A stretch of 64,000 nucleotides of DNA from Pseudomonadota bacterium (GTDB lineage Bacteria > Pseudomonadota > Gammaproteobacteria > Steroidobacterales > Woeseiaceae). A model generated the notes under the pieces. The model saw only the letters and a list, made by a program, of their open reading frames with translations, did no database searches and was not told the origin of the DNA. Position numbers and translations under genes: made by a program. Shown piece after piece: positions 344-40,891 of the stretch. The stretch lies in assembly GCA_022563255.1 (NCBI GenBank), contig JADFNS010000015.1:1-64000 (forward strand). Direction: 5' to 3'. How positions within the stretch are numbered: position 1 is the first letter of the stretch; each line of letters begins with the position of its first letter.

Positions 344-420
344 TGGCGCGCCCGGAGAGATTCGAACTCCCGACCGCTCGGTTCGTAGCCGAGTACTCTA
401 TCCAGCTGAGCTACGGGCGC
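344..420 (-). tRNA. tRNA-Arg (anticodon ACG)
   Basis: On the minus strand a full cloverleaf can be read. The acceptor is GCGCCCG/CGGGCGC with discriminator G and an encoded CCA (344-346). The D-arm begins TAGCTCAGCTGG, the anticodon loop is CTACGAA giving ACG, and the T-arm contains GTTCGAATC. Length is 77 nt including CCA. The A at position 34 is normally edited to inosine by TadA, so it reads CGU, CGC and CGA. In Escherichia the equivalent argV genes lie just after serV and csrA; the same order is kept here except for the reductase gene in between. A matched promoter lies at 471-499. Confidence 0.95.
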
Positions 421-1553: not shown

Positions 1554-1619
1554 TTATCTATGTCCTTGGCTGCGACGCCAGATAGAGTGCCCGGCGAGGA
1601 GTTCGTGTCACGGGGAATG

Positions 1620-1710
1620 TGGCGGAGAGAGAGGGATTCGAACCCTCGAAGGGGTATTAGCCCTTACTCCCTTAGCAGGGGAGCGCTTTCGACCACTCAG
1701 CCATCTCTCC
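1620..1710 (-). tRNA. tRNA-Ser (anticodon GCT), intact copy
   Basis: A 91-nt class II tRNA on the minus strand. The acceptor is GGAGAGA/TCTCTCC with discriminator G and encoded CCA (1620-1622). The anticodon loop CTGCTAA gives GCT (Ser AGC/AGU codons). There is a long variable arm and a T-arm GAGGGTTCGAATCCCTC. It corresponds to serV of Escherichia, also next to csrA. A second, interrupted copy lies directly upstream (1738-1968). The only promoter I can see (2013-2041) precedes that broken copy, so both are probably made as one precursor. Confidence 0.95.
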
Positions 1711-1750
1711 GTTCTGTTCTGCATCTTCGCGTATCCACCGAGAGAGGGAT

Positions 1751-1817
1751 GGATTCGCTCACTTCGTTCACTCTCCCCTACGGGGCGCCTTCGGCGTCCA
1801 AAACGCTGCGCGTTTTG
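1751..1817 (-). repeat. Hairpin insertion element, copy 1 (in tRNA T-loop)
   Basis: Read on the minus strand, the 67-bp insert follows directly after TTCGA of the T-loop. It opens with a perfect hairpin, CAAAACGC, loop GCA, GCGTTTTG. Next come GACGC, a GC-rich short palindrome around CCCCGTAGGGG, and a tail GAGTGAACGAAGTGAGCG. It encodes nothing. It shares its opening hairpin design, the GACGC linker and the CCGTAGGG core with copy 2. Confidence 0.75.
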
Positions 1818-1866
1818 TCGAACCCTCGAAGGGGTATTAGCCCTTACTCCCTTAGCAGGGGAGCGC

Positions 1867-1946
1867 GTTGACTCGCGGCTAACGCCCCTCGCCCTACGGG
1901 CGCTTTCGCTTCGCTGCAGCGTCCAAAATCGCCTGCGGCGATTTTG
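1867..1946 (-). repeat. Hairpin insertion element, copy 2 (in tRNA D-loop)
   Basis: Minus strand, 80 bp, directly after GGTCGA of the D-loop. It opens with a perfect 10-bp hairpin, arms CAAAATCGCC and GGCGATTTTG around the same GCA loop as copy 1. GACGC follows, then a central CCCGTAGGGCGAG and a tail containing GGCGTTAGCC. Copies 1 and 2 agree in the outer CAAAA/TTTTG of the hairpin, the loop, the linker and the CCGTAGGG core but differ in the stem centre and tail. They are related family members rather than a recent tandem duplication. Confidence 0.75.
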
Positions 1947-2012
1947 TCGACCACTCAGCCATCTCTCCCATTTAATCGATCCATGAGGCCTTTGGCCCCG
2001 CGCGGGCCGCAC

Positions 2013-2041
2013 ATAGTACTGTCAGTACTACATGAGGTAAA
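2013..2041 (-). promoter_or_regulatory. Sigma-70-type promoter for the tRNA-Ser genes
   Basis: Minus strand: -35 TTTACC (2036-2041), 17-bp spacer, -10 TACTAT (2013-2018), discriminator GTGCGGCCCGCG. The spacer and -10 also form a perfect inverted repeat TAGTACTG/CAGTACTA around position 2022. The layout matches the tRNA-Arg promoter at 471-499 base for base at the key positions. Confidence 0.6.
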
Positions 2042-2067: not shown

Positions 2068-2268
2068 TCAGGTTTCTTCAGAATCGGGCGTCGCCGCCGC
2101 CGCTTTTTCCTTCTGAATCCGCTCGTAGATCTCTTCCCGGTGAACGGCAATGTCTTTGGGTGCACTGATCCCTATCCGGACCTGGTTTCCTTTGACCCCC
2201 AAGACGGTGATCGTTATATCGTTCCCGATCATGACCGCCTCGCCCGCTCGTCGCGTCAGAATCAGCAT
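2068..2268 (-). CDS. csrA: CsrA/RsmA, carbon storage regulator
   Basis: The 66-residue product begins [15 protein letters not shown] and continues with the [13 protein letters not shown] core, the compact beta-strand dimer of CsrA. This RNA-binding protein recognises GGA in hairpin loops, usually repressing translation at the Shine-Dalgarno, and controls carbon metabolism, motility and biofilm. Length and position (between alaS and tRNA-Ser) are typical for gammaproteobacteria. The start is fixed by AGGAGTAGGAAG just upstream. Its own leader is rich in GGA motifs, suggesting autoregulation. Confidence 0.97.
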
Positions 2269-40583: not shown

Positions 40584-40891
40584 TGCATACGCCCTGTGTG
40601 CGCTACAGTCGCTCGAAATTTATTGATGCAAGTCGCGACGACGCGGGCTATCTGCCTGCGTTCGCTTGTTCGCGTTATTATCAACTTGCTGTCCCTGCCC
40701 ACTTCGGTAGCCCCGCTGTCCTAGGAATCAACCCTTAGACCGGTGGATTTGCGCCCCCACCTTTCGGCGGGTATGCCTTTATCGTGTGCAACAATATGCA
40801 TAATGTCGGAAATCATTACAAGGTATCGTCTCGGATTCCGGAACCAAGATCACCAGTAAGAGGTCGAAAACGCCAACTGCGTCACATTTCT
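40584..40891. other. Intergenic region between divergent M23 and DUF721 genes
   Basis: 308 bp with no credible coding frame. It must contain both promoters, but I find only weak candidates on the plus strand (TTGCGC, 17 bp, TATGCC around 40749-40777). No terminator or repeat is visible. The in-frame start at 40784 for the DUF721 gene is unlikely, because the conserved protein begins at 40892. Confidence 0.5.

Follow-up and report, generated by a model that had tools for sequence, protein, structure and literature searches.

The window analysed here is the whole stretch of 64,000 nucleotides at positions 1 to 64,000 of contig JADFNS010000015.1 (GenBank assembly GCA_022563255.1, a member of the Woeseiaceae within the Gammaproteobacteria). 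Its minus strand reads, in this order, csrA, a promoter-like sequence, an expanded copy of tRNA-Ser(GCT) and the intact tRNA-Ser(GCT) gene, with the following features:

2068–2268, minus strand: csrA, an ORF of 66 aa that serves as syntenic anchor of the locus (name from the preliminary description and from the protein sequence judged by eye)
2013–2041, minus strand: promoter-like TTTACC-17 nt-TACTAT in front of the pseudo-tRNA (regular expression)
1735–1968, minus strand: expanded, promoter-proximal copy of tRNA-Ser(GCT), a pseudo-tRNA (comparison of its core with the intact gene)
1869–1946, minus strand: module 1, 78 nt, in the D-loop after GGTCGA (A21), CAAAATCGCC..GGCGATTTTGGACGC...GAGTCA (47.7 bits with covariance model R1, to whose seed it belonged)
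1751–1817, minus strand: module 2, 67 nt, in the T-loop after GTTCGA (A58), CAAAACGC..GCGTTTTGGACGC...GAATCC (68.1 bits with R1, likewise a seed member)
1620–1710, minus strand: intact tRNA-Ser(GCT) gene with CCA (ARAGORN, Rfam)

Positions A21 and A58, as well as the loop-base counts given below, follow the standard tRNA numbering. The preliminary description had put the inserts at 80 and 67 bp; the latter value stands, while the D-loop insert comprises 80 nt if the altered junction bases are counted and 78 nt otherwise. Likewise, the near-identity of the two tRNA copies outside the inserts holds for the core, which equals the intact gene except for one A-to-C change in the D-stem and an altered 3' end. 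At this end the expanded copy reads GGTGG where the intact gene has TCCGCCA, GCCA having become GG, so that the reported absence of CCA is confirmed, as are the position of the copy nearer to the promoter (that is, closer to csrA and to the promoter-like sequence) and the same orientation of the intact gene behind it. The statement that every cloverleaf stem stays pairable is too strong, since the T-stem/acceptor helix lacks 2 nt in its 3' strand and the CCA is gone; when the full T-stem is read, the acceptor has four of seven Watson-Crick pairs plus one G-U, and one pair of the D-stem is lost. Judged by what characterizes a functional tRNA-Ser (a recognized cloverleaf, an acceptor stem of 7 bp and CCA), the expanded copy fails, and neither ARAGORN nor the Rfam tRNA model calls it a tRNA. 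Its folding beats 200 of 200 dinucleotide shuffles (z −2.91). The intact gene is the sole tRNA-Ser(GCT) copy matched in the source assembly, which is 84% complete. An expanded copy that works as a tRNA, or one whose inserts are removed, was rejected because of the broken acceptor end and the intact gene next door. An assembly artefact was rejected too, since other assemblies of the genus carry expanded copies at this site (L203, L209, L211, L213, L218, L220).

The promoter-like sequence is of the tRNA type and is present, as judged by regular expression, in 27 of 30 csrA loci of the genus, where in relatives without the duplicate it lies about 20–120 bases before the intact tRNA-Ser(GCT); a strict sigma-70 promoter scan called no site at 2013–2041. 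Across both tRNA copies and the modules (1608–2012, minus strand) runs an arginine-rich reading frame of 134 aa, which is probably an artefact of tRNA and hairpin sequence and recalls the 'protamine-like' tpr frame annotated in E. coli rttR. Beside tRNA-Arg(ACG) (344–420, minus strand), an open-ended frame on the plus strand (3–311) has, by eye, a tyrosine-recombinase-like C-terminus (HDLKHTFGRRLR..LLGHRS..HY) and could possibly represent the edge of an element integrated at this tRNA gene. Several relatives have tRNA-Arg(ACG) closely behind tRNA-Ser(GCT) instead. Finally, Rfam identifies a c-di-GMP-I-GGC riboswitch aptamer at 40702–40786 of the minus strand (65.7 bits).

Both inserts open with CAAAA-hairpin-TTTTGGACGC and are, more than expected by chance, members of one recurrent family, the plan of which, TTCGA-[CAAAA..TTTTG]-GA-[CGC..GCG][CCC..GGG]-TGA-[..]-GARTCM-ATCC, constitutes a chain of four hairpins of about 65–100 bp. 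For an alignment of 35 modules (A1; 33 of the 69 unique rows plus two from the source genome), RNAalifold returned the third and fourth hairpins only, and the four-hairpin structure was drawn by hand; 95.6% of its cells are paired, as compared with at most 49.3% when the partners are slid. Stem changes in A1 occur on both sides in 100 cases and on one side in 2, i.e., almost all of them are Watson-Crick swaps, and the first helix is invariant over five counted pairs because the search pattern required them. C-GNA-G triloops account for 58 of 87 (66 modules), as compared with GNA in 69 of 916 in shuffles. The scarcity of G-U pairs in folded modules (2.6%, versus 8.9% in whole tRNAs and 9.4% in shuffled modules) is weak evidence because tRNA acceptor stems are equally poor in G-U (1.7%). 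Taken together, these figures argue with moderate strength that the module palindromes are kept at the DNA level.

The CAAAA-hairpin pattern has 4 matches in the source genome and, within the order sample, occurs in 49 of 119 genomes, each of them from the genus; a reversed control pattern yielded few matches. With covariance model R1, the family is found in 66 of 73 genomes of the same genus, 17 of 46 other genomes of the order sample, 136 of 370 genomes of the class sample (Gammaproteobacteria) and 48 of 199 genomes of the phylum sample, sets of more than 40 genomes having been searched with stricter filters so that weak family members were missed. At least 116 stretches were obtained in a scan of named genomes, including those of Microbulbifer, Aliidiomarina, Endozoicomonas, Halieaceae, Legionellales and some alphaproteobacterial MAGs; a few of these matches (e.g., L041, L053, L064, L113) form no hairpin and are probably due to chance. 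The source genome holds seven module places, two of them at the locus described here; of the others, one is in a fragment of a T-arm behind tRNA-Met, one in the D-loop of an incomplete tRNA-Ser(CGA) copy and one behind tmRNA, and two are less clear. We observed tmRNA among the module hosts also in other genomes, with modules following it in L021 and L024 as in the source genome (C10:40005, L282). Six loci were fetched from outside the class, and in five of them (L259–L262 and L264; not L257) a tRNA-Ser is near the module. Near-identical dispersed four-hairpin modules were observed in G491 (20 model matches), G522 and G541 (L266–L273), with no tRNA in the 0.8–2 kb fetched around them; they may be free mobile forms of the family.

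The strict pattern gave no stretch in viral contigs, and the expanded copy found no match in phages. Nine plasmid records partly match the expanded copy, covering 20–38% of 231 bases, and eight of them do so in the middle, tRNA-core part of the query; the ninth, the linear, 67-kb Serratia marcescens record NZ_CP042515.1, matches the T-loop module at 77% and has 6 module places. This record is labelled plasmid and may be a chromosomal piece; in the part inspected (L286, 4038–6515), tRNA-Ser(GGA) genes are followed by tandem units of RtT type whose first hairpin is CAAAA..TTTTG. An origin from phage or plasmid was rejected on the basis of these searches.

Modules are mostly found inside tRNA loops or in 3' fragments of tRNAs. 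Among 144 hairpin-forming modules (loci L007–L155, most of which came from a pattern including GTTCRA; duplicate stretches dropped), 100 are located within 400 bp of a tRNA or tmRNA detected by ARAGORN, and 99 of these 100 share its orientation (the exception being L107); for the other 44, some of which lie at contig ends, no tRNA was detected within 400 bp. A pattern setting no condition for the flanks (33 loci, 34 matches) yielded 29 hairpin-forming modules, of which 17 are near a tRNA, all 17 in tRNA orientation, and 12 are without a nearby tRNA, several of them at contig ends. The C19 module of the source genome is opposite in strand to a nearby tRNA-Phe. Of 105 unique modules with a tRNA on their own strand at a distance of up to 450 bp, 55 have a 3' flank that agrees with this tRNA in 12 of 12 bases, as compared with no perfect match (0/105) when a tRNA of another isotype is taken as control; 47 of the 55 perfect flanks begin within the T-loop, at 17–19 nt from the 3' end of the tRNA. 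The host is most often tRNA-Ser (47 of 105), and 15 of the 105 modules lie upstream of the tRNA. Two anatomies recur: downstream, the module is followed by a tRNA 3' end and a terminator, often in tandem (e.g., L040), with units of about 165–180 bp that carry terminators and in one case are spaced by 168–169 bp; upstream, the 5' part of a tRNA, or a whole tRNA with modules, precedes the intact gene (L026, L046, L061, L074).

Double insertions into D- and T-loop are present in the window, L209, L203 and L211, and further combinations, each before an intact copy, are anticodon and T-loop in tRNA-Ser(GGA) (L061) and D- and anticodon loop in tRNA-Ser(CGA) (L023). With these two cases only, L061 and L023, the anticodon loop was rejected as a common site, and the exact anticodon-loop pattern with TTGGA matched in 0 of 369 genomes of the class. 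Junctions correspond to the intact site plus the module for the D-loop (L218), the T-loop (L046) and the anticodon loop (L023). Modules are inserted behind the A of a loop motif (TTCGA, GTCGA or a variant of these), and no target duplication is visible. The break lies between bases 5 and 6 of the seven-base T- and anticodon loops (TTCGA^, TTGGA^) and behind A21 in the D-loop.

How the expanded copy fares in relatives can be followed at csrA, a match to which was found in 49 of 73 genomes of the genus. Thirty of these loci were fetched, which realizes the search of csrA-tRNA-Ser loci proposed in the preliminary description: ARAGORN detects tRNA-Ser(GCT) after csrA in 29 (in L217 the tRNA runs into Ns), and inspection of all 30 by eye revealed the upstream copy in 8, the rest being without. 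These copies carry inserts (i) in both D- and T-loop (the window, L203, L209, L211), (ii) in the T-loop only (L213 and, twice, L220), or (iii) in the D-loop only (L218), and one is degenerate (L222). Since the T-loop insert of five of these loci is a different variant, CCGAGGCGC..GCGCCGACAGACGC, unlike that of the window, what this one site holds is subject to turnover. Every copy that extends to the acceptor end has this end broken. L203 and L211 have D-arm deletions, and their first hairpin is changed on both sides (CTAA..TTAG) and, by eye, still pairable. Random decay of the stems in close relatives, which had been named as the mark of a simple pseudogene, fits the tRNA stems and not the module stems. 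In L213 and L220, the anticodon arm of the pseudo-tRNA was observed to be a now longer, perfect palindrome (CTCCCTTG-GCT-CAAGGGAG), as if a tRNA stem were turning into a module-like hairpin.

On the alaS-csrA tree, the loci that carry the expanded copy do not form one clade, and a single origin was rejected: the trait needs 5 changes on the best tree, in which row L201 sits on a very long branch, and at least 4 changes are forced by well-supported branches. The A-to-C change in the D-stem is common to the window, L209, L203 and L211, and CTCTCGGTGG is common to the window, L211, L213 and L222; such odd bases in common suggest common descent of several copies. The expanded copy is either old, with losses, or was transferred.

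Comparison with known elements points to RtT (RttR; RF00391) of E. coli. Model R1, which was built without E. coli, matches the three E. coli K-12 units after tyrV at 18.6, 18.4 and 15.5 bits (E 4e-5 to 4e-4; 1.7 kb searched, filters off) and, at 14.6 bits (E 2e-4; 0.6 kb searched), the unit that lies between tyrT and tyrV. All four matches are in register and on the tRNA strand. The Rfam RtT model, which scores the units after tyrV at 134–137 bits, yields 14.5 bits for the window, under its cut-off of 45, and 30.9 bits for L027, the best of 20 relatives' loci. As in RtT, TTCGA and AATCC of a tRNA T-arm frame the hairpin chain of the window's T-loop module, the modules lie on the same strand beside intact tRNAs, and in many relatives the downstream units possess a GGATGAGAAC..GGTTCGA-like lead-in together with a tRNA 3' end. 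However, an RtT unit has the GGATGAGAAC lead-in and a tRNA 3' end with CCA, both of which the window copy lacks; the host in the window is an entire tRNA copy in front of the gene, with a D-loop module too, and the first hairpin is CAAAA..TTTTG rather than CTCG..CGAG. The tandem units after tRNA-Ser(GGA) in Serratia marcescens combine an RtT-like GAGGGGCGAGAAGCCTCGACAGGGTTCGA lead-in with a CAAAACGCCTGCGTTTTG first hairpin and are, as far as their sequence indicates, a form between the E. coli and window types.

The second Rfam family with a likeness is Aggregatibacter sRNA 22 (AaHKsRNA22, RF02902), whose ACAAAACGC..GCGUUUUG and CCCC..GGGG hairpins align with module 2, although Rfam types it as an sRNA and places it in no clan with RtT. 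Its model scores 22.1 bits in the window, under the cut-off of 39.8, and matches at the module in ten of 20 relatives' loci, one of which (L034, module after tRNA-Val, 42.5 bits) is over the cut-off. A lone regulatory RNA from Rfam was rejected, the scores of the window being sub-threshold only. With REP/BIME elements the family shares the nature of short dispersed palindromes without genes, but it differs by its tRNA-loop targets, its four-hairpin chain and the lack of a matched Y1 transposase in the source genome. Elements of the BIME type that resemble the rtT transcript are mentioned in a passage of PMC2965389, and a table in PMC12306157 lists rttR as holding a REP. Among open-licence full texts, we found no paper on modules in tRNA D-loops or anticodon loops.

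We consider it fairly probable that the locus represents a dead tRNA-Ser(GCT) duplicate that hosts two RtT-like palindromic modules, one in its D-loop and one in its T-loop, which spread as DNA and are co-transcribed with the tRNA. The earlier suggestion of a dead duplicate that served palindromic elements as a landing pad is well supported by the recurrent family, found mostly at tRNA loops and in tRNA orientation, by the broken acceptor and by the decay of the core in two relatives (L203, L211). The modules would spread as DNA by strand-specific entry into the loops of tRNA genes, and would persist only where a second, intact copy, as is kept alongside in the window, preserves tRNA function. 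Those of the window would be transcribed as leader of the tRNA-Ser(GCT) precursor and be removed when the intact tRNA is processed. The other option put forward at the outset, a structured RNA with a tRNA-like core, may apply as well: the position ahead of the sole tRNA-Ser(GCT) found in an incomplete assembly suggests transcription, and Northern signals are reported for related RtT RNAs of another species (PMC4986893).

Since TTCGAA is identical on both strands, free insertion of DNA should give both orientations; the single orientation observed hence needs either a strand-specific step or selection on RNA. Mobilisation of REP elements relies on a Y1 (RAYT) transposase encoded in the genome that harbours them. 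For Y1 transposases (PF01797), no match was found in the source genome (G000, an assembly 84% complete); they are present in 48 of 73 genomes of the genus and absent from the module-rich G037, G021 and G019. Mobilisation by Y1/RAYT is thus unsupported, as Y1 does not track the modules in the compared genomes. A further point against mobility is that exchange between the T-arms of tRNA genes would account for most places without transposition. Also at odds with the proposed reading are the 44 of 144 modules for which no tRNA was detected within 400 bp, the L107 and C19 modules, which are opposite in strand to the nearest tRNA, and the copies located apart from tRNAs in G491, G522 and G541.

A rival reading takes the modules as genes, or processing products, of an RtT-like regulatory sRNA: tRNA core and hairpins would make up an RNA that is cut from the tRNA transcript and acts, for example, in the response to amino-acid starvation claimed for RtT. 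A single orientation relative to transcription (99 of 100), the promoter-like sequence in front, the distant match of R1 to the E. coli rttR units and the AaHKsRNA22 model reaching its cut-off in L034 are all in line with such a role. Passages of PMC4986893 likewise describe E. coli RtT as released from tRNA transcripts, tie RtT to amino-acid limitation, and report Northern signals in A. pleuropneumoniae for the RtT RNAs Arrc20 and Arrc21, which adjoin tRNA genes. Yet the expanded copy is found in only 8 of 30 csrA loci and is scattered on the tree, the T-loop insert is of another variant in five of these loci, and the changes are almost all Watson-Crick swaps, so that we regard an sRNA as unlikely.

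Distinctly unlikely, too, is an explanation that dispenses with a mobile module altogether and invokes tandem duplication of tRNA fragments together with gene conversion between conserved T-arms (GGTTCGA..ATCC). Homology shared between T-arms would fix the orientation, most matched flanks (47 of 55) place the module between the GGTTCGA and ATCC common to tRNAs, and tandem units of about 165–180 bp with terminators do exist. However, the D-loop insertions are without 3' ATCC homology and are nonetheless bounded by the module ends, the two anticodon-loop cases likewise, and dispersed copies without a tRNA exist. Remnants of integrative elements or phages using tRNA attachment sites are very improbable: integrative elements do leave tRNA 3' fragments beside intact tRNAs, and an integrase-like frame (motif by eye) is situated beside tRNA-Arg at the left edge of the window, but neither the strict pattern in viral contigs nor the expanded copy in phages found a match, the modules contain no gene cargo, and they occupy D-loop and anticodon-loop sites.

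In E. coli, the repeats that adjoin the tyrosine tRNA gene are mostly regarded as peculiar to one operon. Our findings suggest to view these tyrT repeats as one branch of a family that extends across Gammaproteobacteria and other proteobacterial lineages, with members entering T- and D-loops, and rarely anticodon loops, in a single orientation; the window type is a new variant of these known but neglected RtT-like repeats. It is then tempting to speculate, although we advance this only tentatively, that a class of gene-less mobile DNA modules exists throughout the phylum, E. coli RtT and Aggregatibacter sRNA22 being its outliers, which inserts into tRNA loops on one strand (TTNGA^; in the D-loop after A21) without target duplication, its landing site being a folded single strand of a tRNA gene under active transcription. 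Origin and spread thereby become testable: a single genome can hold one module in several tRNA genes, at an identical position in the loop and often next to the empty site. In annotation, misreading is likely both for expanded tRNA copies and for the arginine-rich frames that cross them. Should the modules move on single strands, the tRNA genes would serve as targets in the form of exposed DNA hairpins; if they act as RNA, many tRNA transcripts would carry an unannotated structured leader or trailer.
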